Positions 934 through 19,849 of a DNA stretch of 20,354 bases are shown one piece after another; positions within the stretch are counted from its first letter, which is position 1, and each line of letters starts with the position of its first letter. The stretch is from positions 1 through 20,354 of the IMG/VR virus record IMGVR_UViG_3300025889_001203, one strand, 5' to 3'. The notes below the pieces were generated by a model. It was not told where the DNA came from and searched no databases. It worked only from the letters and a program-made list of their open reading frames with translations. This stretch comes from a virus. Made by a program: the position numbers and the translations under genes.

Positions 934-1086
934 TTACCCTATAGGGTTCCAACCCGAATTGTCCGGGTCGATTTCGTCGAGCCACGCATCACGCAGCTTT
1001 GGGTCTTCCTGCATATGTTCCTGCCATTGCCGCTCATTGATCTGGCCGCTGCGGTAACAGGCGATGAGAAGTTCTTGCTCGGTCAT
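934..1086 (-). CDS. Small fibre-associated phage protein (50 aa)
   Basis: The ATG at 1086 overlaps the TGA of the fibre gene (TGATG), and the frame runs to TAA at 934-936. The product opens with MTEQELLIACYRSGQINERQ and continues WQEHMQEDPKLRDAWLDEID, a compact, acidic, probably helical protein. Many phages carry small proteins of the type 'ELL.AY.SGQ.sE.QWQ.HL' directly after a tail fibre gene, as I remember; the function is unknown. There is no strong ribosome site of its own, so translation is probably coupled to the fibre gene. It is flanked by two copies of the fibre C-terminus coding sequence, which suggests it belongs to an exchangeable fibre cassette. Confidence 0.65.
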   Translation of the reverse strand: MTEQELLIACYRSGQINERQWQEHMQEDPKLRDAWLDEIDPDNSGWNPIG

Positions 1087-2651
1087 CACAGCGCCGCAAT
1101 CATAAATGCGAGGAGTTCATCGTACCGGATTCCGTAACGCTCACCAGCTTCGATGCCCGGATTAATTACGTTGCCTTCATCGTCTGTTTCTTCTGGCTCC
1201 GCTTCCCACGTATCGTGGCACAGCAGCGCATAGCGTGTGGCGTCAAGACCTTCTGCCGCAAATGCCGCGATAACTTCCTGTGCAATCACGCCAACATGAA
1301 TGCGAGCATCGTCGCCCTTGGCGGCAACCGCATCATTGTATTTGAACTTTTTAACGAGCCCTTTGAGCGCGACAGCGACGCGCCGCTCGGCGTCATCAAG
1401 ATCGGCGATCTGCTGTTTTTCGCGTTCGTCGGATGTGTTGATAGTGCCAGTTCCCGCGTAGACGACTGACCAGCGGTACGAGGCTAATCCAAGCGTCTGC
1501 GTGTTGTCAGCGCCGGGACGCACGACACCGCTGCTGGTGATACGCATACGTTCTGTGTCAGCAGTTCCAAACGAAAGACTGCTCCCGGCCTGTCGGTCGG
1601 TGACGTAAGACACGCTTCCGTCCTTTGAAATTAACAGCGAGTTGGTGACGCCCGTTGCGTCACCATCAGTTAGATAAAGGCGAACTGAGTCTCCTTCGTC
1701 ACTCTGAATATGAAGTTGACCGCCGGGATCAGTCAGCCCGATAGCGACCCTGCCGCCCGGGAGGATGCGCATGCGTTCCAAGGCATTGACATTGAACCGC
1801 ATTGCTTCGCTTGTACGATCCAGCATAATGTAGTTAGCATCTGCATCGCCAAAATTGTCGTGGTCAAACACAATTGCCGGGTTAGCAGCAGCAGAACCTG
1901 TATCTGTTCGAATGGCTCCAGCAACGTGCAGCTTCGTGTCAAGTGCCGTATCAACAGTTGTTACACCAATGCCGACCTTGCCATCATCAATCGTAAAGCC
2001 TACGCCAGGAATGCTGAAATAATCATTGCTGGTATTGCCAATAATAATCTCATTAGATGAAGTGCTAGATGTTGTTTGCGCTTGCTTACCAATGACGATA
2101 TTGTTATCGGCAGTAGAAGCGCCAGTAAAATTATTTCCTGCGTCATATCCAATTAGGATATTATAATCGCCTTCTTGGAAATAGCGGCCTGCAAAATAAC
2201 CTATGCCAATATTGTAAGTCCCAGTGGTAACAGCGCCCAGCGAACTGTATCCACCAACGGCGGTGTTTCCACTGCCGGTTGTGCAAACGCCAAGAACGCC
2301 GAGACCGCCCAGCGCCACATTGTAGTTTCCTGTTGTAATATCTTTGCCAGATAAGTACCCAGCGGCAAGATTATAATTGCCTGTAGTCAAGTCTGTTAGC
2401 GTGTAAGTGCCAAGCGCCGTGTTGCCAGCGCCCGTCGTCCTGGCATCCAGCGCTTCATATCCCACGCCCAGGCTAGAAATACCATTGGTGTAGATGTTCA
2501 ACACCGAGTTGCCGGTCATATTCACGTCTTTGAAAAGGTTGTCTTTTGTGACCTTTTTCGTGGTGCTAGTAGAGACATCGACTACCGGCAACACGTCGCT
2601 GCCATCGACCGTCGTCAGCGCCGTCAACTGAGTGATTTTTGAGTCGGCCAT
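1086..2651 (-). CDS. Tail fibre/spike with C-terminal S74 intramolecular chaperone
   Basis: This 521-residue protein is a receptor-binding or structural fibre. Residues 1-45 form a short adaptor (KITQLTALTTVDGSDVLPVV) like those at the N-termini of many phage fibres. Residues 60-205 hold repeated units of the type TTGxYNxALGxxxL, for example at 72, 89, 106, 124 and 142, typical of trimeric beta-structured fibres. Residues 225-400 are beta-rich. The C-terminal ~115 residues are an endosialidase-type chaperone (peptidase S74): NTSDEREKQQI at 405-415 with the conserved Ser-Asp near the expected self-cleavage site, HVGVIAQEV at 452-460, and a terminal YDELLAFMIAAL. In this family the domain guides trimer folding and is then cut off. 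The start at 2651 has an AAAGGGG site just upstream. Confidence 0.85.
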   Translation of the reverse strand: MADSKITQLTALTTVDGSDVLPVVDVSTSTTKKVTKDNLFKDVNMTGNSVLNIYTNGISSLGVGYEALDARTTGAGNTALGTYTLTDLTTGNYNLAAGYLSGKDITTGNYNVALGGLGVLGVCTTGSGNTAVGGYSSLGAVTTGTYNIGIGYFAGRYFQEGDYNILIGYDAGNNFTGASTADNNIVIGKQAQTTSSTSSNEIIIGNTSNDYFSIPGVGFTIDDGKVGIGVTTVDTALDTKLHVAGAIRTDTGSAAANPAIVFDHDNFGDADANYIMLDRTSEAMRFNVNALERMRILPGGRVAIGLTDPGGQLHIQSDEGDSVRLYLTDGDATGVTNSLLISKDGSVSYVTDRQAGSSLSFGTADTERMRITSSGVVRPGADNTQTLGLASYRWSVVYAGTGTINTSDEREKQQIADLDDAERRVAVALKGLVKKFKYNDAVAAKGDDARIHVGVIAQEVIAAFAAEGLDATRYALLCHDTWEAEPEETDDEGNVINPGIEAGERYGIRYDELLAFMIAAL

Positions 2652-7820: not shown

Positions 7821-8221
7821 CGCCCCGGCCTCTGATAATAGCGTATCGGTCGCCATGTATTCGGCGTCCGCGATACATCCATAATAACAGACCCCACGCC
7901 TTCTTGCACATGCAGAATTTTATTCTTGCGACCCACGACTATCCCAATGTGGTTCTGAGTTTTTACCCCGTCTCTCATCGACCACATGTGCAAGACATCG
8001 CCGTCAACCGGATCGTCGGTCGGCTGCGTTATCATCTGGAAGTCGGTGCAATCAATTGCTTCGCCTCGATGAGCAGCGAGAAGATGATGACGATGATGCT
8101 CTAGCCTGATTCCAAAGATTTCTTGGTACACCAGCACGACAAGCCCCCAGCAATCGACGCCGTCGCGGCTCGTCCCAAGCGGCGACACCGGCAGGCCGAT
8201 GTACTGAGTTGACCAATGCAT
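7817..8221 (-). CDS. K: NlpC/P60 tail assembly peptidase (gpK-type)
   Basis: A 134-residue NlpC/P60-family cysteine peptidase. The catalytic Cys is C24 in GVDCWGLVVLVY, the His is H91 in NHIGIVVGR, and H104 in ILHVQEG fits the third polar residue; this Cys-His-His order is family-typical. In lambda-like phages this protein takes part in tail-tip assembly and may cut cell-wall peptides during DNA entry. Unlike lambda gpK it lacks the N-terminal JAB/MPN domain, so it is the peptidase part alone. It starts at ATG 8221, sharing one base with the previous stop (TGATG), and ends inside the tail-tip gene start. Confidence 0.88.
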   Translation of the reverse strand: MHWSTQYIGLPVSPLGTSRDGVDCWGLVVLVYQEIFGIRLEHHRHHLLAAHRGEAIDCTDFQMITQPTDDPVDGDVLHMWSMRDGVKTQNHIGIVVGRKNKILHVQEGVGSVIMDVSRTPNTWRPIRYYQRPGR

Positions 8222-8778
8222 CAGAATAGCGCCGGAAACAGATTTGGGGTGAAGCGATTGGGTGGGAACGGTTCCGTTAAAAAGTCCCCCAGAATTAGAT
8301 CGGCCTGGATGGCCAAGGCGTCAAAGCTGATATTACGAAGCTCATAGTTTGAATACGATCCGACGAGCTCGACAGGCTCGTCCTGTACAAGTTTATCGCC
8401 GTTTTCCAGTAGCAAGAAATCTCCAGTCTCAAGCAACAAGAACTCTGTCGTGACCTGACCCGACATCAAGATGTGGAAGTCGATGCGAATGCGCTCGCTG
8501 CCGCCGACCGAGCGGATCTCGTCCATGATCTCCCGCGTCACGTTTCCGACAACAAGACGCGCCTGTGGCGCACGTTCTGCATTGTCGTCGGGGAGAGTCA
8601 GCGCGAATGGGAACGGCTCATAGGTGTATCCGTTAGCGATCACAGGGATCGGATTATTAACAAAGTGGAAAGTGGACTCGAACTCGCTGTGAGATATATC
8701 AAGCAGTGTCAAGAAGGCCTTGCTTGTTTGCTGGGCTAATATAGCCTCTTTCGCAGCCGTGGAGAGCGATCTTGCCAT
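8221..8778 (-). CDS. DUF1833-like minor tail protein (gpL position)
   Basis: The 185-residue protein starts at ATG 8778, 2 nt after the gpM-like gene. Its frame matches DUF1833-type phage tail proteins: an N-terminal FLTLLDISHSEFESTFHFVN, central RAPQARLVVGNVTREIMDEI, then ELRNISFDALAIQADL and a C-terminal ending FPPNRFTPNLFPALF. By position it stands where lambda has gpL, which acts in the tail tip. An unusual piece sits in the middle: two tandem eight-residue units, FLLLETGD and FLLLENGD (113-128), followed by KLVQDE. This looks like a short repeat insert within the family fold. The two units use different codons, so the repeat is not recent. Confidence 0.72.
   Translation of the reverse strand: MARSLSTAAKEAILAQQTSKAFLTLLDISHSEFESTFHFVNNPIPVIANGYTYEPFPFALTLPDDNAERAPQARLVVGNVTREIMDEIRSVGGSERIRIDFHILMSGQVTTEFLLLETGDFLLLENGDKLVQDEPVELVGSYSNYELRNISFDALAIQADLILGDFLTEPFPPNRFTPNLFPALF
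8395..8442 (-). repeat. Tandem 8-codon repeat (FLLLE-T/N-GD) in the DUF1833-like gene
   Basis: Two consecutive 24-nt units encode FLLLETGD and FLLLENGD. Seven of eight residues agree while the DNA differs mainly at silent positions, so the repeat has been kept at protein level. Confidence 0.6.
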
Positions 8779-9164: not shown

Positions 9165-11357
9165 CTATCTCCTCGTCAGCCGCGTGCTAGTCTCGAACCG
9201 TTGGCCGATGGCGCGATAAATCTGTCCGCCATTTGCAATGTCAGACGTGACGGCGCGACGGATGATGACATCAATGTCCGGTCCGTTTTGCTTGGCCTCA
9301 ACATCCGCCCCAGCCTGATTGATGATGTTGACGTTGACGTTTGCGCCGCCGCCAGCGACGCCCAACTTACCGTCTGGCCCGCGGGTCAATGGCATGATCG
9401 CTTCCGGGCCGGCCTCACCCATCAGGCCTGCGCCCTTCGCCATCGGGAACAGCGTTGGCTTGCCAATCACACCGCCGCGGGCGAAGGGTACAACATTTCC
9501 ATGGCTAAAAGCGCCGCCCTTCGCCATGCCTGGGCCGATGAACGGAACAAAACCGCCACTGGCCATAGTCCCCAACCCGGTCCTGCCGAGCGCTGCACTT
9601 GCGCCGTACCCGCCGCCGAATAAGCCGCCAAGGCCACTGAATAACGACCCAAACAGGCTTGCAGCGGCTTTCTGAGCCATCATCTTGGCGAAGTCGGCAA
9701 GGATCGAGCCAACCATTTCTTTGAACGCCTGCGAAACGCTCTTTGTGCCGTTGACGATGCCGGTGAATGCCGTTGTGAACGCGCTCGACACTTTGTCGAG
9801 CACGGTGTCGGCAAGTTCTCTAAACGCCTCTTGAAGACTCTGCACGGGCGTTTTGAGTTGCTCTAATTCTTGCAGCTTGGGGACCAGCACCGACATCTGC
9901 TCATTAGTCAAGCCGACCTGAACCTTTAGCTCCGCAGCTTGCTTCGCTAGTTCAGGGCTGAAGCCACCAGTGTTGATAAGATCCATGGAGAGCCGCGCAA
10001 TATCAATCTGCTGCTGCACCTTGGTGATTTCCGCTAAGAACGGCCTAATTTCAGGCCGAGCCTGGGGAACGGGGACTCTGCCGGTTCTAACGCCGCCCAT
10101 GTCCTCTCGCTTTGTTAACTCTTCTGTGATCGCTTTTTGAGCAGCAAGGTGCGCTTCGACCGCGGCCCTCGCGCGCTCAACCTCATTGCCAACCCCAGTA
10201 GCCGCTATTCTCTTGGCTTCCTCGTGAGACGCACCTTGCCGCAGGAGTTGATTGATTTTCTCCTGGATATCCAATTGCCGAATCAACGGCTCAAGTGTGC
10301 CTTTGGTAGTATCAAGCGGCTCAAGTTGCGCCAGCAAATCCTTCGTGGCTTTAGTTAATCTGCCGGTTGACGACGTGGCCTTATCAACCCTACCCGCATA
10401 TTCGTCCATTTGTGCTCGGGCGCGAATAGCAGCGTCTACTAAACCCTTAGTGCCGAGAATTGCGAGTTGCTGCTCTGGCGGCAGTTCCTTCACCGCGGCA
10501 ACCAAATCAACAAGTATCGAATCAAAATTTTGGCCGGCAGCCGCAGCAATTTTGAACTGCCTGAACAGATTGTCTACCTCGCGTGCCGCCTCTGGTATCT
10601 TCTGTTTAAGATCCTCTATGGCTTTTTTTTGCTGCCGTACAGCATTTGCAAAATCAACTGCGCTTTCCCCGGCCGCTGGCGAGAGGACCACATCTATCCT
10701 ATTTAGTTCTTCAAGGTTCCTCCTAATATCAGCCGGCAATGCTTCGCGAAATTTACTCAGCGCATTTATCCCGGCAGTCTTTGACGCCTGCCTTTCAACC
10801 TCTCGCTGGGCGTCAAGGAAAGTTCTTAATGCGGCTGTAACCTTGCCGTACCTTTTCTCCGCTTCCTCTAAACTGGATGCGACGCTTGTATCAAAGGTTG
10901 AAGCGACCCTGTTGCCAGCGGCGTTTAATTGCGAAATCGCATCGCTGAGGTCTTTTACCTTTGGAGTATTTTTCTTCGCCGCTTCCCCAGTTTTTTCAAA
11001 CACAACGGCGACAGCCGCAAAGACAGAAACGGCTGCGCCGACAATCGAGCCAATCGGACCAAAGATTTGCAGAAGCTGCGGAGCCTGCTGGCCAAAAGCC
11101 TGTATCGCAGACGTGCCATTGCCGACCTGAACGGCGAAGTCGCCAACCTGATATCCAACTTGTTGTAGCCCAGTGCGGAAGAAGCGATTGCCGCCGCCCT
11201 TGCCTTGCAGCAACTTTTCCATGCGGGCAAGGTTATCATTTGCCGGCTTAATGGCCCGGTCAAGTTTCTTTACAGAGTCCGTCGCTTGGTTAAGGCCGCG
11301 TACAGCGGAGCCGACATTGGCGGCGACTGCCAAATTAATGTTTATGCCGGCGGCCAT
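9165..11357 (-). CDS. H: Tail tape measure protein
   Basis: The 730-residue protein sets tail length and is expected to leave the tail with the DNA. It starts at ATG 11357 behind AGGAG. Early residues (6-60) contain a helical stretch, SVKKLDRAIKPANDNLARME. A hydrophobic segment lies at about 95-120 (LLQIFGPIGSIVGAAVSVFA), as often seen in tape measures. Residues 125-540 are mostly charged helices rich in Ala, Gln, Glu and Lys. A second hydrophobic Gly-rich region lies near 565-620, followed by the frequent tape-measure ending LMGEAGPEAIMPLTRGPDG. Residue count times about 0.15 nm predicts a tail near 110 nm, a rule-of-thumb estimate. The gene overlaps the frameshifted chaperone extension by 23 nt. 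Confidence 0.92.
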   Translation of the reverse strand: MAAGININLAVAANVGSAVRGLNQATDSVKKLDRAIKPANDNLARMEKLLQGKGGGNRFFRTGLQQVGYQVGDFAVQVGNGTSAIQAFGQQAPQLLQIFGPIGSIVGAAVSVFAAVAVVFEKTGEAAKKNTPKVKDLSDAISQLNAAGNRVASTFDTSVASSLEEAEKRYGKVTAALRTFLDAQREVERQASKTAGINALSKFREALPADIRRNLEELNRIDVVLSPAAGESAVDFANAVRQQKKAIEDLKQKIPEAAREVDNLFRQFKIAAAAGQNFDSILVDLVAAVKELPPEQQLAILGTKGLVDAAIRARAQMDEYAGRVDKATSSTGRLTKATKDLLAQLEPLDTTKGTLEPLIRQLDIQEKINQLLRQGASHEEAKRIAATGVGNEVERARAAVEAHLAAQKAITEELTKREDMGGVRTGRVPVPQARPEIRPFLAEITKVQQQIDIARLSMDLINTGGFSPELAKQAAELKVQVGLTNEQMSVLVPKLQELEQLKTPVQSLQEAFRELADTVLDKVSSAFTTAFTGIVNGTKSVSQAFKEMVGSILADFAKMMAQKAAASLFGSLFSGLGGLFGGGYGASAALGRTGLGTMASGGFVPFIGPGMAKGGAFSHGNVVPFARGGVIGKPTLFPMAKGAGLMGEAGPEAIMPLTRGPDGKLGVAGGGANVNVNIINQAGADVEAKQNGPDIDVIIRRAVTSDIANGGQIYRAIGQRFETSTRLTRR

Positions 11358-11843
11358 TCTTCATCTGCTCCTGTTCGATCCGAGTGAACGCGATCCACTC
11401 GTTCAACTCATCAATCGAAATCTCTTCGATCTCGGCGATGGTCTTGTGCAAGCGATCCGCAAGCGCGATGAGATTGAAGCGAAGCGGATCGTTCCTTAGT
11501 TTTTTTCATGTTCCTCGGCGCTAGTGGCGTCGAAGATCGAAGCGAATACATTGCCGATGACATTGACTGGCTCACGCAACAGGATCGGCTTGTCCTCCAG
11601 GTCGAATGCATTGTTGCCGTCGGCGTCTTTGCACTTGACGACGATCAGTTCGACCATTGAGTCAGTAGTCGGGCTGCTCAAGAAGTCTTTGTACCTCTTT
11701 TGCACACGGCTGATATCAGCACCCGTGACCGGGCCATAGTAAAGTTTAAGCGGACCTTTGTCGTCGCCCCACTCTGGGACTTCAAGCACGCGCATCTCAT
11801 TCGACGCGCGTGCTGCTGCAATCCGCTGACCAAGAGCACTCAT
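11335..11843 (-). CDS. GT: Tail assembly chaperone GT, made by -1 frameshift
   Basis: The ribosome reads the G frame from 11843 to base 11499, slips back one base on A AAA AAC, and continues in the -1 frame from 11499 to the TAA at 11335-11337. This gives 115 + 54 = 169 residues. The added part runs LRNDPLRFNLIALADRLHKT, then IAEIEEISIDELNEWIAF, TRIEQEQMKNGRRHKH. The 'sidELnEWiaf...' pattern is that of lambda-type gpT parts, which bind the tape measure. The extension has no early start codon of its own, so frameshifting is the only sensible route to it. It ends inside the tape measure gene start. In lambda, G and GT in unequal amounts keep the tape measure soluble and recruit tube protein. 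Confidence 0.88.
11453..11505 (-). promoter_or_regulatory. Programmed -1 frameshift signal: slippery heptamer, spacer, stem-loop
   Basis: On the minus strand, A AAA AAC occupies 11505-11499 in the correct phase (zero frame GAA AAA AAC TAA). After a 7-nt spacer comes CGATCCGC (11491-11484), and its exact complement GCGGATCG lies at 11460-11453, making an 8-bp perfect stem around a 23-nt loop. Within the loop CGC and GCG could add three inner pairs. The zero-frame stop is the codon right after the heptamer. All elements of a canonical -1 site are present at normal spacing. Confidence 0.88.
11496..11843 (-). CDS. G: Tail assembly chaperone G (unshifted product)
   Basis: The 115-residue zero-frame product starts at ATG 11843 behind AGGTGATTA, 13 nt after the tail tube gene. 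It contains VLEVPEWGDDKGPLKLYYGP, a pattern common in phage tail chaperones where a short beta region precedes a helical core (VTGADISRVQKRYKDFL). It ends FDATSAEEHEKN with the TAA directly after the slippery heptamer. The position between the tube and tape measure genes, and the frameshift at its end, identify it as a G-type chaperone. It is expected to be the major product and not part of the finished virion. Confidence 0.88.
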   Translation of the reverse strand: MSALGQRIAAARASNEMRVLEVPEWGDDKGPLKLYYGPVTGADISRVQKRYKDFLSSPTTDSMVELIVVKCKDADGNNAFDLEDKPILLREPVNVIGNVFASIFDATSAEEHEKN

Positions 11844-11856
11844 TAATCACCTATGA

Positions 11857-12249
11857 TTAAGACACTGTCGCCGACGTTAGGGCTCCATTGCCCTGGATGC
11901 CGATGCTCATCTCGACCATGCCGTCGTAAGACGCAGTGATTGAGCGAGAAGTGACAATAGCGCTGCCGGTGTAGTAGACATCGCCGGTCGTCGATCCTTC
12001 TGGATAGACTGAGAATGTGATCTCGGCTTGAACCGTCAGGGCGTCCTGACCGCCAACGTCGCTTTCGACCCAGAAAACATCCAAGCTGCCATCGAACGAT
12101 TTCAAGCTTGGTTTGTATGTGCGAACCACCGAGCCCATGCTGCTGTCTTCTAGAACGTCGGCATTTTCATTCAGCGTATACGAACGAATTTGCGCGACAG
12201 CGGTCGAGCCAATCTTAACAGTGCCTTCAGAACCTGTATGCGTAGCCAT
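11857..12249 (-). CDS. V: Major tail tube protein
   Basis: The 130-residue product starts at ATG 12249 behind a TTGGAG site 7 nt upstream. It opens MATHTGSEGTVKIGSTAVAQ and continues IRSYTLNENADVLEDSSMGS, with FDGSLDVFWVESD in the middle and GMVEMSIGIQGNGALT near the end. This is a compact beta-barrel tail tube pattern, in which the early beta strands and the long loop build hexameric rings. Length is typical for small tube proteins; lambda gpV is longer because it has an extra C-terminal Ig-like domain, absent here. It is followed by the G/GT chaperone and tape measure, the normal order. It should be one of the most abundant late proteins. Confidence 0.85.
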   Translation of the reverse strand: MATHTGSEGTVKIGSTAVAQIRSYTLNENADVLEDSSMGSVVRTYKPSLKSFDGSLDVFWVESDVGGQDALTVQAEITFSVYPEGSTTGDVYYTGSAIVTSRSITASYDGMVEMSIGIQGNGALTSATVS

Positions 12250-13459: not shown

Positions 13460-14764
13460 CTAGGCCACCGACACTTCGTTAGTGACCGCGAAGCTCTCGC
13501 CGTTCCGAACAGCAACATCGACCTCTTGGAGGACGGTGATGCGCACGGTGCCAGACTTGTCGCCGGCATACGGGTTGACCATGATCGACGGGCTGGAGAA
13601 CAAGCCGATCATCATCTGCGAGAAGTCGCCGAACACCAAAGCCGACGCATCGTTGCCGCCGTCACCGGGGTCAAGGTTCGTCGGGATGTTGCTGGTGAAC
13701 GCAGCGCGGTAGCCGTACATCGACGCCCACGGATCGTTCAACAGCATCACGCTGTCGGTGCCAGACACCTTCGCGGTCGAAGCCAATTTGGCTTTGACTG
13801 CTGGGTGCGACAGCCAACCGAGAGCGCCAGCGTTGATGACACCGTTCGCCTGCTCGACAGTCTTCACCAGAGCGACGATGTCGGCCCAGGTCAGGCTGTC
13901 AACGTCAGTGCCGGCAGAGATGTCAACGTCGCCGATGCCGGAGGTGTTCAGCAGGCCAGTCGGCTGACCGCCGGAGCCGGTTCCGTTGATCGCGTAGTAT
14001 TCCAGGCGATCAGCCATCGACGCCAGCAGGTCGTTGCGAACGATCTGCTCAATCGAGGGTACACTTTCAAGCGCTAGCAGCCTAGATATTTCTACGTATG
14101 AGCCGAAAGTGCGGGGCTGCAAGCTAATAGAGGAGTCGGTCTGGCTTTGATCCGAAACGTCTCCGCCTTCCTCAACGAACGCGGCCTGCGCGCCCGACAG
14201 TTTCGGAATGCGGATGCGGTTCGTCAGGCCACCCATATAGGTGACGCCGAGGCCACCGAGCACCTGACGAGCACGCAGGGCTTCGATGAACAGATCACCG
14301 CGCTGGATCGTCGGGACGAAATTGTCAGTGACAGCTTCGCCAGAGATCGCACCAGTCGCCGCGGTCGTCATCACGCCAGAGCGCCATGCAAAGTCAGGAA
14401 CATAGAAGCCCTGGCTTTCCTTGCCGGTGCGGCGCACGATTTCCTCGTGCAGTTCGCGCTCGTAGCCAGCGTGCTTCCAGTCACCGCTGACTTGAGCGCG
14501 GATCAGGTTGCCGATGGAATAGTTGCGCTGCTCTTTCGGCTTCACATCGTGCGAGAGCGGAGCGACATCGAGGGCTTGACGCTTCTCAATATCATTCAGC
14601 AGTTCGCCGCGGAATTGCTCGACAGAGATGCCACGGCCGAGGGCGGCTTCGCCCAGGTCGCGACGGTTGAAACGGGCGGCAAGGTCGAGGATCGCCTTGT
14701 CGTTTTCGCGAGCGGCGCGGACAGCTTCTGCCTTGGCCACTTCGACATCAACATGGGGTTCCAT
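13460..14764 (-). CDS. Possible separate major capsid protein from an internal start
   Basis: Within the fusion, the Met at residue 389 (ATG 14764) is preceded by AGAAAGGA 8 nt upstream, a strong ribosome site at good spacing. Starting here gives a 434-residue protein, the normal length for an HK97-type capsid with its N-terminal delta domain (EVAKAEAVRAARENDKAILD). The codons just before it (VTSSTSTPKERTES) look like a flexible linker. Independent initiation would give the hundreds of capsid copies needed without equal amounts of protease. That both products are made is inferred, not shown by sequence alone. Confidence 0.5.
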   Translation of the reverse strand: MEPHVDVEVAKAEAVRAARENDKAILDLAARFNRRDLGEAALGRGISVEQFRGELLNDIEKRQALDVAPLSHDVKPKEQRNYSIGNLIRAQVSGDWKHAGYERELHEEIVRRTGKESQGFYVPDFAWRSGVMTTAATGAISGEAVTDNFVPTIQRGDLFIEALRARQVLGGLGVTYMGGLTNRIRIPKLSGAQAAFVEEGGDVSDQSQTDSSISLQPRTFGSYVEISRLLALESVPSIEQIVRNDLLASMADRLEYYAINGTGSGGQPTGLLNTSGIGDVDISAGTDVDSLTWADIVALVKTVEQANGVINAGALGWLSHPAVKAKLASTAKVSGTDSVMLLNDPWASMYGYRAAFTSNIPTNLDPGDGGNDASALVFGDFSQMMIGLFSSPSIMVNPYAGDKSGTVRITVLQEVDVAVRNGESFAVTNEVSVA

Positions 14765-15928
14765 GCTTTCAGTCCTTTCTTTAGGAGTAGATGTTGAGGA
14801 GGTAACAGGCGGATGCGAACGCCCTACGCCGACTTGATCGGACATGTCAGCCGGAATCGAGACAATCGACACCTCAAGCGGCTTGGTTTTCACCCGATAG
14901 TACTCCTCGGGATCGTCCTTCCGCTCTACTCGGCCATGAAGTTCATAGCCGACACTGATGTTGCGACGAATGCCGTCAACAACATCATCGAACACTTCAG
15001 AAGCGAGCGCGCCCTTTCCAAAGCGCACCATTGCCCGCAGACGGCGGGTTGCCTCATCGAGTTCGATGTTCTCTACGACGCCGATTACTTTGGACATGTC
15101 GTGATCCAACAGCAACGGCGCACGACCAGACCGCAGGAACGTCAGGTCCATGCTGTCGGCGCTGTGATCAATAACTTCCAGGCCAAACGACCTGCGAACC
15201 GGCTCTTCAGTGCTAACGCCGACCGTGATGCGTCGTGCGTCCGCGTCAATACCGGGCTCTTCCATCGTAATTGCGCGCTTGACCATGTTCTCGCGATCAA
15301 ATCGTTGCTCAATCTCGACGATTTCGTCCGAGATTTCTGATGGAATTTCTGTCGCTCTTTCTTCCATAGTCGCCGCCTCAAAAGTAATGGGATCAAAGTC
15401 GTGATCCATCAACCATTCTTTCGCCTCTTCCGCAGTCTGGATCGAAGCATCGAAGCGAATGCTCTGTATTTCGCTCTTACCATCTTTGATGCCATAAATA
15501 AAGTCGATGCCTTCTCCGCCAGCGTTTGCTTCGCGACGGAAATCATCAAACTGATCAGGATCAGCCAGACGTGCAGCGTGTTCATTCGGGTAAGGGCGAA
15601 TCTCATCCATCGCTCTGTACTCCTTGACCTTCTCATCAGCAAAGCTCTTGCCTGCGTTCCCCCCCCACAATGACCATGCAATTCTTCCATTGCTAGGATA
15701 CCCAGGCTCACCTGGCGAGAAACCTTCAGCCTTCTTGTCTACCTCATGCCTGGCGAAGAACGAATGCATCCGTTTGATCGTGCTGGGCGACAAGGTTTCG
15801 TTATTAACAATGTCGCGTGCGCGTGCAATGCCGACCTCGGTCCCACCGCGCCCGAACTCCTTACGCCAATCAAGGCCACGCTGCGCCTCCGCACACATAC
15901 CAGCCGTCGGTTTATGGCCATCCATCAT
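13460..15928 (-). CDS. Fusion: accessory domain + S78 prohead protease + HK97-type major capsid
   Basis: One 822-residue frame joins parts that are usually separate genes. Residues 1-100 contain a phage domain with RMHSFFARHEVDKKA and IAWSLWGGNAGKSFA; residues 105-185 hold a second small domain (YPNEHAARLADPDQFDDF, then QSIRFD and AKEWLMDHDF). Residues 230-365 are a peptidase S78 prohead protease with LLLDHD (probable catalytic H276), NISVGY (probable S325) and PLEVSIVSIPA. From 389 onward is a helical delta region and then an HK97-fold capsid (QGFYVPDFAWRSGVM; EGGDVSDQSQTDSSISL; INGTGSGGQPTGLLNTSG). The start overlaps the portal stop (ATGATG; GGAGG is 3 nt from the first and 6 nt from the second ATG at 15925). 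The capsid part also has its own ribosome site. Confidence 0.9.
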   Translation of the reverse strand: MMDGHKPTAGMCAEAQRGLDWRKEFGRGGTEVGIARARDIVNNETLSPSTIKRMHSFFARHEVDKKAEGFSPGEPGYPSNGRIAWSLWGGNAGKSFADEKVKEYRAMDEIRPYPNEHAARLADPDQFDDFRREANAGGEGIDFIYGIKDGKSEIQSIRFDASIQTAEEAKEWLMDHDFDPITFEAATMEERATEIPSEISDEIVEIEQRFDRENMVKRAITMEEPGIDADARRITVGVSTEEPVRRSFGLEVIDHSADSMDLTFLRSGRAPLLLDHDMSKVIGVVENIELDEATRRLRAMVRFGKGALASEVFDDVVDGIRRNISVGYELHGRVERKDDPEEYYRVKTKPLEVSIVSIPADMSDQVGVGRSHPPVTSSTSTPKERTESMEPHVDVEVAKAEAVRAARENDKAILDLAARFNRRDLGEAALGRGISVEQFRGELLNDIEKRQALDVAPLSHDVKPKEQRNYSIGNLIRAQVSGDWKHAGYERELHEEIVRRTGKESQGFYVPDFAWRSGVMTTAATGAISGEAVTDNFVPTIQRGDLFIEALRARQVLGGLGVTYMGGLTNRIRIPKLSGAQAAFVEEGGDVSDQSQTDSSISLQPRTFGSYVEISRLLALESVPSIEQIVRNDLLASMADRLEYYAINGTGSGGQPTGLLNTSGIGDVDISAGTDVDSLTWADIVALVKTVEQANGVINAGALGWLSHPAVKAKLASTAKVSGTDSVMLLNDPWASMYGYRAAFTSNIPTNLDPGDGGNDASALVFGDFSQMMIGLFSSPSIMVNPYAGDKSGTVRITVLQEVDVAVRNGESFAVTNEVSVA

Positions 15929-17412
15929 TCGCCTCCATCAACAATCGGAGCGGCTGCGCTCTTGTCGCCGAATGGCTCATGGGCGAACTTCAGACCATAT
16001 TGCGCAGCCAGTTCTTTATCCGCTTGCAGCGAGCCCAGAAGTTCTTCCACGTCCTTACCATAATTCGCCGCGATGTCCGAAAGCGAGATGATACCATTCG
16101 TGAGAGCCGTGACATTCGCGTTGATCTCCTTCTGCGGATCGACCCAGGCGTAGCCTCTGCCACGCCAGATGACGTTCTCGCTGAACTTGTAAAACTTGTT
16201 CGCGGGGATCGGGAAGTTGTCGAACGACAACAGTGTTTCTAGCCACTGCGAATAGATGGGAGCGCACATATGATCAATCATAAATGATTGCAACATACGG
16301 TAGTAATCGCGGTCTTCGATGGTTCCCTGCCGGATGGAAGAATAGCTGACGCCCTCCAGGTTCTGGCTGAGGCTGGTGTAGCTGACGTTCAGACCAGCAG
16401 CGATGCCTCTGAGGATCGCAGACTCGAAATCAGCGTATGCTGTAACAGGATGGGTCGGGTCGATGAGTTTCAGATCGTGTCCCGCCGGCAACTGATACAT
16501 GGCCCCTGGGTTCATATCGATGATTGGAACGTCATCGACTTCATCATCCCCGGCAAATTCATCGCCGCCCGGCGTCGTAATGACGCCGAACTTGGCCGCA
16601 GCCGATCTGGCCGCGATCAACTCGGCTTCGCGATAACCGTGCAGCATTTTCAGCGACGCAATAGCAGGCGCCATAAACGGCTCGCCTCGCGTCTGGAATG
16701 GCCGCGACGGCATATAGATGTGCAGGATCTCGTCCGCCGGCACACGAATATGCTTTCGCACATTGCTGAAGCGAGCGTTGAGGGAGTCGCCAGGATGGGC
16801 CGTCAGAACATAATATGCGACAGCCTTCTGGTTGCGATCAACCTCGACGCCCATCCTGATCTGATTGCCGTTTTCGGCAGTGCCGGTCTTGTCGTGATCA
16901 ATCAGATCACTCTCTAGAAATTGGATGGCAAAGTTGTTGTAGTAGCGCGCGCCACGCAGAAGCCTGATAAAGACTTCGCCGTCGCGCGCCAACGTCTCAA
17001 CCGCATGACGCTGACAATCAACCCAACTCATCCGACCGCCTACTTCGGCGCGGCCCAGCCGACCCCACTGTTTCCAAGCGGTCTCGATAATATCGTTCCC
17101 ACTGATATCGATGCTGCCATCTTGATTTCTCGCGCGGACCTGCAACGTGAACCCGCGTTCGCCGACGACGTTTGTCTTCATCAGTGTTAGAAAGCGTTTC
17201 GCATACTCGTTGTTTCGCGCCAAGTCTCGGCAGCGATTGCGCAGCAGCGGCAGGGCTTGGTTTAGATCGCCATCCGCCGTGAACATCGAGCCAGGAAAGT
17301 CCGCAAACAGTCGCCCTTGGTTCGCCCCGCCATAGTTCCGGCGCTGCATACGACGCTGTGGCTGCGGCTCCATATCTGGCGAGCGGCGAAAGAAATCTAG
17401 AAGCCCCATCAT
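15925..17412 (-). CDS. B: Portal protein (lambda gpB family)
   Basis: The 495-residue portal forms the dodecameric ring at one capsid vertex through which DNA passes. Family signs include the N-terminal ARNNEYAKRFLTLMKTNVVG, TLARDGEVFIRLL near 140-152, the loop LHIYMPSRPFQTRGEPFMAP (equivalent to the 'H.y...RpgQ.RG.P' motif), and NLEGVSYSSIRQGTIEDRDY, then VIWRGRGYAWVDPQKEINAN near the C-terminus. The length is near lambda gpB (533 aa). The start at ATG 17412 overlaps the previous stop as ATGA with GAGG 5 nt upstream; ATG 17409 is an equally good alternative. The stop overlaps the protease-capsid start, so the two are coupled. Confidence 0.93.
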   Translation of the reverse strand: MMGLLDFFRRSPDMEPQPQRRMQRRNYGGANQGRLFADFPGSMFTADGDLNQALPLLRNRCRDLARNNEYAKRFLTLMKTNVVGERGFTLQVRARNQDGSIDISGNDIIETAWKQWGRLGRAEVGGRMSWVDCQRHAVETLARDGEVFIRLLRGARYYNNFAIQFLESDLIDHDKTGTAENGNQIRMGVEVDRNQKAVAYYVLTAHPGDSLNARFSNVRKHIRVPADEILHIYMPSRPFQTRGEPFMAPAIASLKMLHGYREAELIAARSAAAKFGVITTPGGDEFAGDDEVDDVPIIDMNPGAMYQLPAGHDLKLIDPTHPVTAYADFESAILRGIAAGLNVSYTSLSQNLEGVSYSSIRQGTIEDRDYYRMLQSFMIDHMCAPIYSQWLETLLSFDNFPIPANKFYKFSENVIWRGRGYAWVDPQKEINANVTALTNGIISLSDIAANYGKDVEELLGSLQADKELAAQYGLKFAHEPFGDKSAAAPIVDGGE

Positions 17413-17996
17413 ACAAACCTCGCCAAAATGGTTGCTCGGCCCTTTTTGCCACGTTTAATGTCCATTTTTCGACGATGAGCCGTAACCTCCTGCCGATAGG
17501 CGTCGCGCCACTTCATCAACTCTTCTGGCGTCATCTTGGTCAAAGACCGGCCAGCGATGGCATAGCTATTAATATCGCCGTCAGCACGGTTCTCCAGGAC
17601 TGACTCAATCTTGTTGAGCATGATCTCGGCGTGAGTGCGCGGATCGGACTGGTTCTCATCAAGATCGACAACAGCGGTGAACTCGCCTCGGTCAACAACA
17701 AGGCGATTGCCGGTCGAAGTCTGAGTGATCTCAAGTTGCCAATGATAGCGTCCCGGCGAGAACGCAGCGCTGGTAGCGCTATCGACCTCAAACCAATAGT
17801 ATGTGCTTCGCTCAGTCGCCAAAAACTTGATTTCGTTCGAGCCGCCGCCAGTGATCCTGGCTACATACTCGGCGCTGTAGCTTGCGGTCGGGTAATCAGC
17901 GACAAGGTCGGACCGCTTCCAGGAAATATAATCGCCGACTACGATCTCTGTCGGCTCGCCCTCCGGCGCGTTTGCTTCGTCGAATAAGTTGGCCAT
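17409..17996 (-). CDS. gpW-position protein with extra N-terminal beta domain
   Basis: The gene sits between the large terminase and portal, where lambda has the 68-residue head-completion protein gpW. The product is much longer: 195 residues from ATG 17996 (one-base overlap TGATG with the terminase stop; TTG 17999 is less likely). Residues 118-195 are helical then basic (MLNKIESVLENRADGDIN; YAIAGRSLTKMTPEELMKWR; RRKMDIKRGKK; RATILARF), the layout of gpW/DUF6148-like proteins, with 'GRSLtkm...EL..wR..y' as the best match. Residues 1-113 are a strand-rich region (GDYISWKRSDL; YYWFEVDSATS; GRYHWQLEITQTSTGNRLVV) that reads as an Ig-like sandwich. The role of the added domain is unknown; a head-surface decoration or joining role is a guess. 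Confidence 0.68.
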   Translation of the reverse strand: MANLFDEANAPEGEPTEIVVGDYISWKRSDLVADYPTASYSAEYVARITGGGSNEIKFLATERSTYYWFEVDSATSAAFSPGRYHWQLEITQTSTGNRLVVDRGEFTAVVDLDENQSDPRTHAEIMLNKIESVLENRADGDINSYAIAGRSLTKMTPEELMKWRDAYRQEVTAHRRKMDIKRGKKGRATILARFV

Positions 17997-19849
17997 CAAG
18001 CGTACCCCGTCACAAAGTTCCTGCGCGGTGAAATCTTAGTTTTGCGCCGGCTAGTCGCATTGGGGTTGTGTACTATATTTTGCATGTTTTTGTAAAGCGC
18101 GTCCAAGTTTATGTTGACGATGGCCAAGGCCGCGATTGCGTAGACCCGACAGTCAAGCGCCTCGTTGCGCGTCCGGACCTTAACCCATTCCAGTCTTGGC
18201 CTTCCCTTGTAGTACTTCGTCACTCGCCTTTCCGCCGTTAGCATCCTGTAATATTCTGCATCGCGATCCGCCGGGAAATGACAGTAACCGGGTCCATCGG
18301 CCTCGATCTTCAGTCGCGCATACACCAACTCTTTACAGGTGTTGACGCCAACGCTGAACAGGTTGATGCGACCAATGTTGTTGCGGCTTGGCCTTGAGAC
18401 GATTGGCCGACCATCGCCGCCGACACCTTTGATGGCGAATATGCGTTTACCTGTCTGCTGTTTGACAAACTCATACGTCTGCTGAGTGTAATGACCGCCA
18501 GTGTCGATGGCGATGCCGCGCGGAACCATGTCGCCTGCAATAGGATGAGCCCATGTTTTGCCAAGAGCGATAGCTAGGTCGTTCCACAACTGCTTGGTCG
18601 ATGGATCGCCGAATATGGTTTCATACGCGAGTGAATAGCTTTTCTCCCCTGGAGCCCAACCAACGACTTCATACGCAAGATAGGCATCCTGAACGTCAAC
18701 ACCAATGGTGATGGCGGCAACATCCTCTGGCAGCATCTCGCCCCAGTTGTGCGCCCTCGCCATTAAGTCATGTTCATCGACGCCGGCAGCTTGATCAATT
18801 TCCTCGAACGTCTCGCCCAGAAACGTGTTGACCCACGCTCTCAGGCGCATTGGGTCGCCCTTACTAGCGATGAAGTCACGAACGCCATCCTCCAGCGTCG
18901 CCCATGGCGAGTACAGAGCGTTCAAATGGAAGCCCGCTGTCTTGCCATCGCCGGTCGATGTTGCTCGCCATTCACCGTATCGAATGGCTCGATAGCGAGC
19001 GGCGTCGTTCCAGCAAGATCCGCAATGCTCGCAAACGTAATGCGCGGTGCCGGGTAGATCCTTCTCCCACTGCACCTGCGACCACTTCAGGTGCTGGTAT
19101 TCAGTGCAATCCGGGCATTTGACGAAGTATTTGCGCTGGTCGCTCTCCTCATATGCCGCCTCAATCCGCGACGCACCTTTGGTCGTCGGCGTGCTCACGA
19201 GCACGATCTTGCGGTTCCAGAAGGTTGCCGCCCGCCGTCGAGCAAGAGCGACAGGGTCGCCCTCGGCTCCAGCACTGACAGGGTAGCGATCAACCTCATC
19301 GCAGAGGATTAAGCGGCATGGCCGGCTTGCCAATGACGACGGGCTGTTCGCGCCGCAGGCGGTTACATGGCCTCCCTTGAAGCTCTTATGCAGTACGGTG
19401 TTTCCACTGTCGCGAGACTTCGGATCGGATATGACGTTGCGCAATGCCGGTGTATCGCGGATACAAGGCGCAAGCCGATCCTTGGCCCAGGTCTGCGCCA
19501 TCTCCAGAGTCGGCTGTACCACCAAAGCTGGACATGGGTTCTGAGCGATATGGAAGCCTATGACGTTGTTAATCAGTTCCGTCTTTCCGACCTGGGCTGC
19601 GGTCATAAGGACGACGGTCTCGATTGCCGGGTCGGTGACGGCATCCATCATGCCGCGCTGGTATTCCGCTCTGGATGTTGACCATTTACCGGCTTCTGCG
19701 CTGCTTTCGCTCGACAGATACCGGTATTGGTCAGCCCATTGGCTGACGGTCAACTTAGGCGGTGGTCGCAGCGCGCTTGCAACAACATCCGAAAGACGAC
19801 GACTAAGCTGCTCCGCCTGCGTCTTCCTCGTCTTCTCGTCCCAGTTCAT
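17996..19849 (-). CDS. A: Terminase large subunit (gpA family)
   Basis: This 617-residue motor and nuclease packages DNA into the prohead. The ATPase shows Walker A AAQVGKT (84-90), Walker B LILCDE (180-185) and coupling motif VLVSTPTTKG (216-225). Four Cys in CPDC (245-248) and CEHC (273-276) suggest a zinc-binding insert, common in the gpA family. The nuclease has GVDVQD (D385/D388), AIDTGG (D449) and NEALDCRVYAIAA (E563/D566), giving the acidic cluster expected for metal-dependent cutting. The start at ATG 19849 has GGAGG 6 nt upstream and overlaps the small subunit by 47 nt. gpA-type enzymes in lambda-like phages usually cut at cos sites; the end type here cannot be proven. Confidence 0.96.
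   Translation of the reverse strand: MNWDEKTRKTQAEQLSRRLSDVVASALRPPPKLTVSQWADQYRYLSSESSAEAGKWSTSRAEYQRGMMDAVTDPAIETVVLMTAAQVGKTELINNVIGFHIAQNPCPALVVQPTLEMAQTWAKDRLAPCIRDTPALRNVISDPKSRDSGNTVLHKSFKGGHVTACGANSPSSLASRPCRLILCDEVDRYPVSAGAEGDPVALARRRAATFWNRKIVLVSTPTTKGASRIEAAYEESDQRKYFVKCPDCTEYQHLKWSQVQWEKDLPGTAHYVCEHCGSCWNDAARYRAIRYGEWRATSTGDGKTAGFHLNALYSPWATLEDGVRDFIASKGDPMRLRAWVNTFLGETFEEIDQAAGVDEHDLMARAHNWGEMLPEDVAAITIGVDVQDAYLAYEVVGWAPGEKSYSLAYETIFGDPSTKQLWNDLAIALGKTWAHPIAGDMVPRGIAIDTGGHYTQQTYEFVKQQTGKRIFAIKGVGGDGRPIVSRPSRNNIGRINLFSVGVNTCKELVYARLKIEADGPGYCHFPADRDAEYYRMLTAERRVTKYYKGRPRLEWVKVRTRNEALDCRVYAIAALAIVNINLDALYKNMQNIVHNPNATSRRKTKISPRRNFVTGYA

Follow-up and report, generated by a model that had tools for sequence, protein, structure and literature searches.

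A 20,354-base virus record (IMGVR_UViG_3300025889_001203, analysed over its whole length and hereafter called the window; 20 genes counted) from an uncultured siphovirus very probably carries a programmed −1 ribosomal frameshift like that of lambda G-T, with predicted stimulators. Most ribosomes would stop at the TAA that ends gene G, releasing the tail assembly chaperone G. In a minority, the tRNAs on AAA and AAC would re-pair one base back on AAA AAA by tandem −1 slippage, and the slipped ribosomes would read CTA AGG AAC and onward, giving a G-T product of about 169 aa. From the lambda precedent, G would be expected to coat the tape measure protein, and the T domain to recruit the tube protein. 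A hairpin 7 nt downstream probably raises slipping at an intrinsically weak bacterial site, and an upstream Shine-Dalgarno (SD)-like GAGGA probably does so by pairing with the anti-SD of the elongating ribosome. The slipping itself, its stimulation by the hairpin and GAGGA, and the G:GT ratio are what we infer from the sequence.

Table 1. Features of the predicted frameshift cassette and its flanking genes in the window.
Feature	Coordinates	Strand	Basis
Major tail (tube) protein, upstream of G	11857-12249	−	phrog_1407, E 2e-18
Gene G, zero-frame tail assembly chaperone, 115 aa, ending EEHEKN and stop	11496-11843	−	ORF, phrog_344, AlphaFold model
SD-like GAGGA, 6 nt upstream of heptamer	11512-11516	−	codon conservation
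Slip heptamer AAAAAAC, in phase A_AAA_AAC	11499-11505	−	sequence; relatives
Zero-frame stop TAA, abutting heptamer	11496-11498	−	sequence
−1 frame T domain, 54 codons plus stop (11337-11335)	11335-11499	−	ORF; pN/pS; phrog_337
Hairpin 5' arm CGATCCGC, 7 nt past heptamer	11484-11491	−	fold; covariation
Inner extension 5' side, CGC	11479-11481	−	minimum-energy fold
Inner extension 3' side, GCG	11464-11466	−	minimum-energy fold
Hairpin 3' arm GCGGATCG	11453-11460	−	fold; covariation
Tape measure protein, ATG at 11357	9165-11357	−	phrog_339, E 7e-32

All elements of the cassette lie on the minus strand, where the order tube gene, G, (T), tape-measure gene places G-T between tube and tape measure. 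The window also encodes a lambda-type portal, a GpA terminase, a protease-capsid fusion, a GpJ-like tail tip and an NlpC/P60 protein. The fusion (13460-15928, minus strand) is an 822-aa prohead protease plus capsid protein whose N-terminal ~250 residues match no Pfam family, and a tail fibre/spike-like protein (1086-2651, minus strand) ends in a Peptidase_S74 intramolecular chaperone and shows a weak endosialidase-family match.

The profile match of G to the phrog_344 tail assembly chaperone was weak (E 0.0016). The AlphaFold model of G (pLDDT 87) found its best PDB fold match in 2OB9, the HK97 tail assembly chaperone (E 2e-4, prob 1.00, TM about 0.5, about 20% identity); this match came from fold comparison only, and a PDB sequence search with the G profile returned no relevant match. 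As modelled, the fold of G resembles that of this HK97 protein. The −1 product matched phrog_337, 'tail protein' (E 5e-5), as did all of the 24 members tested. A Pfam search with T gave nothing significant, the lambda gpT family PF06223 was matched by 3/24 members (best E 0.047), and hhalign against lambda T gave a probability of 27%, so that the resemblance of T to lambda T itself is only suggestive.

The 3' end of G reads GAG GAA CAT GAA AAA AAC TAA, confirming the claim of a first-pass annotation that an in-phase A AAA AAC is followed at once by the zero-frame stop. No other gene among the window's 20 has an in-frame X_XXY_YYZ heptamer that abuts a stop. A TGA immediately 5' of the heptamer closes the −1 frame, whose translation past that point is LRNDPLRFNLIALADRLHKTIAEIEEISIDELNEWIAFTRIEQEQMKNGRRHKH (54 codons). 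It ends within the tape measure gene with an overlap of 23 nt and holds no ATG, GTG or TTG in codons 1-16; the same annotation had correctly placed the end in that gene and noted the lack of an early start codon. Two further in-frame heptamers near gene ends were seen on the minus strand. C_CCA_AAT lies 6 codons before the stop of 8221-8778, with a −1 frame entering the overlapping NlpC/P60 gene (7817-8221), and A_AAG_GGC lies 9 codons before the stop of 17409-17999, with a −1 frame entering the portal gene; each is probably an incidental gene overlap.

Relatives gathered by scans comprised 258 analysable loci, the scan for relatives of L085 giving one locus. An in-frame X_XXY_YYZ slip heptamer was present in 254 of the 258, nearly always touching the stop or one codon ahead of it. 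Most loci carry AAAAAAC, one clade AAAAAAG, and a few GGGAAAC or AAAAAAA; the exceptions are L071-L073 (GGAAAAG) and L172. The −1 frame (median 50 codons) is open in 257/258 loci, and the one exception, L135, ends at a contig edge. L071-L073 keep a conserved T, yet the site before the stop is the non-standard G_GAA_AAG. In L172 (around position 1506), T is intact, but the G zero frame terminates before the expected heptamer position, an arrangement that could be an assembly error or a changed organization.

The downstream stem was found exactly as first described, a perfect 8-bp helix after a 7-nt spacer, and the suggested three-pair inner extension (C-G-C/G-C-G) was present in the minimum-energy fold, which also predicts two A-U pairs beyond a bulge. 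The spacing agrees with the published rule that frameshift hairpins generally begin 5-8 nt downstream (PMC4066793). The window alone argues only weakly for this stem: z was −0.6 in a 71-nt fold and −2.0 in a shorter, 58-nt fold, and the comparison with synonymous recodings gave p = 0.022 (0.012 for a near-identical allele). The relatives make the case convincing. An Rfam scan returned only a chance-level PreQ1 match (E 1.5, below the gathering score). Most of the window's clade has a hairpin in the same register, usually longer than that of the window (as many as 19 pairs, with z down to −8) and with compensatory changes, and inner helices are also predicted, for example in L026 and L036; the earlier statement that the stem is specific to this sequence was therefore wrong.

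Because both arms encode conserved T residues (DP.R and ADRL), their conservation is partly a matter of protein sequence, and folding was for this reason compared with synonymous recodings. The stem could be a mere by-product of these residues with no role of its own, as would fit the absence of reduced synonymous variability in the arms (0.48-0.52 versus 0.47 elsewhere in T) and the existence of closely related phages without it. However, in 37 of 48 distinct loci the native RNA is more stably folded than its own protein-preserving recodings (z < −1.64), and in L065, L070 and L081 other residues encode an equivalent hairpin. Covariation of the two arms, a check suggested with the original claim, was also found. 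In a gapless alignment of 32 sequences, an 11-pair core was formed in 85.8% of cells, versus at most 44% in slid controls, and its covariation was 0.267, above all 500 shuffles (0.167 ± 0.018). Five double compensatory changes were counted in the core on the G tree, versus 0-2 in twelve slid controls, and partner permutation of compensatory changes gave P 0.0005. In the clearest case, L052, a G-C pair became U-A: one side changed Asp to Tyr, and the 3' side exchanged one Arg codon for a synonymous one. These paired changes and the recoding result make a by-product origin unlikely. The hairpin is conserved as RNA in most of the clade.

For the core statistics, explicit pair counting replaced RNAalifold, which recovered only 6 outer pairs from all 32 sequences, probably on account of shifting inner loops and bulges. 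The full 19-pair helix was less clean than the core, a slide of −1 giving more double changes than the true register; the claim is therefore limited to the 11-pair core.

The window-type hairpin is missing in CRP-811, CRP-821, CRP-406, L048 and most of the L068 and L074 clades. The first-pass annotation had named loss of the −1 frame and stem in G-bearing relatives as evidence against the cassette; the frame is kept in nearly every locus, but the stem has indeed been lost in some. Since the losses include the window's nearest cultured relatives, the roseophages CRP-811, CRP-821 and CRP-406, the hairpin is best read as a modulator, maintained yet not required, which would tune frameshifting and not enable it. 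In this capacity the stem may set frameshift efficiency. In the L074 clade (L086-L165, AAAAAAG), 0/32 loci have the hairpin, and the RNA past the slip site folds worse than synonymous recodings (mean z +0.66), so that this clade perhaps avoids structure there.

The SD-like GAGGA is a third part of the cassette that the earlier annotation missed. Its position agrees with the published rule of a GAGG, AGGA or GGAG motif 6-17 nt upstream, and GAGG and AGGA in this range are stimulatory by experiment in E. coli (PMC4066793). In the window's clade, 30/31 distinct loci use GAG for Glu at codon −6, versus a minority use of GAG elsewhere in G (107/245 Glu codons; P 3e-10), and the Glu codons at −5 and −3 are GAA (15/16 and 31/31). 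The same preference was seen in the L068 clade (51/55, P 3e-21). In the AAAAAAG clade, GAG occupies this codon in only 13/33 loci (P 0.41). Thus GAG at −6 is conserved beyond codon use in the window and L068 clades.

Both candidate stimulators suit ribosomes, which bears on the alternative that RNA polymerase slips on the A run, yielding mRNAs minus one A (or plus two) that encode G-T. The window has 7 consecutive A, A7 occurs at 32/35 distinct sites of its clade, and sites of the L068 clade (L183-L262) are mostly 8 A. However, A7 is short for transcriptional slippage, the phase against the zero frame is strict (always A_AAA_AAC), other relatives have only 6 A, and the GGGAAAC relatives (L056/57, L069, L167/168) have no homopolymer run at all. 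Mainly because of the last group, transcriptional slippage is considered improbable as the source of G-T. The 8-A runs set the L068 clade apart from the window's clade, and polymerase slippage could contribute there.

Frameshifting on the ribosome is the preferred reading. The conservation of T begins at the heptamer, upstream of every candidate start codon. Across 31 gapless sequences, T showed a pN/pS of 0.31 and its frame was free of stops, versus 117 and 115 in the two remaining frames. Residues LA..L..T make up the invariant core, and an E...W farther along is conserved as well. T thus evolves as a protein under purifying selection. With the counts of heptamers and open frames and the 2OB9 fold match, this supports the claim that the −1 cassette would give a G-T tail chaperone. 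An independent gene T with an internal start and an incidental heptamer would explain the in-frame NTG codons carried by relatives within T, and in phi3LM21 a piece of T has its own ORF annotation. Such a gene would have its earliest start in the window at a TTG at codon 17, just within the hairpin end and without an SD, and the position of the first candidate varies among relatives; an ATG at 11509 is in another frame and missing from most of them. With conservation running from the heptamer, an internal start is highly improbable. That the heptamer is a chance, unused sequence at an ordinary gene end can practically be dismissed: X_XXY_YYZ heptamers are frequent (30 per window strand), but position, phase and open frame are conserved in about 98% of the 258 relatives and T is under purifying selection.

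Frameshifting in tail chaperones is among the most widespread recoding events. Xu, Hendrix and Duda reportedly described in 2004 the programmed −1 frameshift of lambda G/G-T and its relatives.

Lambda G/G-T and related frameshifts have been reviewed (PMC5009743). Lambda has likewise the same gene order, a short chaperone that gains an extension through a −1 shift close to its end, and a T that ends in the tape-measure gene. Its heptamer is G_GGA_AAG, whereas that of the window sits directly at the stop; the T of the window has 54 codons versus 144 aa in the lambda T ORF, shows no significant sequence match to it, and is accompanied by a hairpin and an SD-like element that are additions relative to lambda. 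An AAAAAAC adjoining the chaperone stop codon is also described for gp12/gp13 of Acinetobacter phage Loki, in passages (PMC5313236) that mention no stimulator; the host is unrelated, and the likeness is one of description. The layout of SD-like motif, slip heptamer and hairpin is that of dnaX and IS911 (PMC3711429, PMC4066793), which are different genes with the stronger A_AAA_AAG in place of A_AAA_AAC; in dnaX the frameshift shortens the product, unlike the extension predicted here. By these comparisons, the window cassette is a predicted lambda G-T frameshift with a dnaX-like set of stimulators. Hairpins have been predicted for 3/5 phage clusters (PMC4066793), and reporter frameshift efficiencies of 6-7% were obtained for two HK97-like chaperone genes (PMC3711429). 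The G-T frameshift is already widely known, and AAAAAAC beside the chaperone stop and predicted hairpins have precedents. In the open literature, to which the search was confined, no paper was found with a covarying hairpin and a conserved SD-like element at a tail-chaperone slip site. To our knowledge, comparative evidence for stimulators of tail-chaperone frameshifting is seldom documented.

In E. coli, A_AAA_AAC is a low-efficiency site and A_AAA_AAG a strong one (PMC5009743, PMC4066793), which suggests why stimulators accompany the former. We tentatively consider, as a possibility that is more doubtful than not, that stimulators offset slip-site strength: A_AAA_AAC lineages keep the SD-like motif, and the window's clade also a covarying hairpin, whereas the A_AAA_AAG lineage mostly has neither. 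The pattern is limited by the L068 clade, which has AAC but little hairpin, and the tree holds only 1-2 independent switches between AAC and AAG. If such compensation were real, the G:GT ratio would stay constant as one cis element is exchanged for another. The relatives form a dense natural series in which three clades differ in heptamer and in whether they carry the hairpin and the SD-like motif, which makes the setting of the G:GT ratio by phages open to study by element swaps.

Cultured relatives include roseophages and pelagiphages. The roseophages CRP-811, -821, -822, -823, -831 and -406 carry a related G (50-51% identity); those inspected (CRP-811, -821, -831 and -406) share the heptamer and T, and the window forms a supported group with CRP-811 and CRP-821 on the tree. 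Frameshifting is never mentioned in the text of the paper on the CRP phages (PMC12629253). As the first reading had predicted of ordinary annotation, T is left blank in the public records of CRP-811, CRP-821, CRP-831, CRP-406 and HTVC026P, and public genomes of related marine phages would thereby omit a likely essential product, G-T. In Pelagibacter phage HTVC112P (L268, 991-1137, minus strand), an AAAAAAG slip site is followed by a 59-codon −1 frame, and over the T region the record places a hypothetical protein on the opposite strand, an ORF that is likely spurious.
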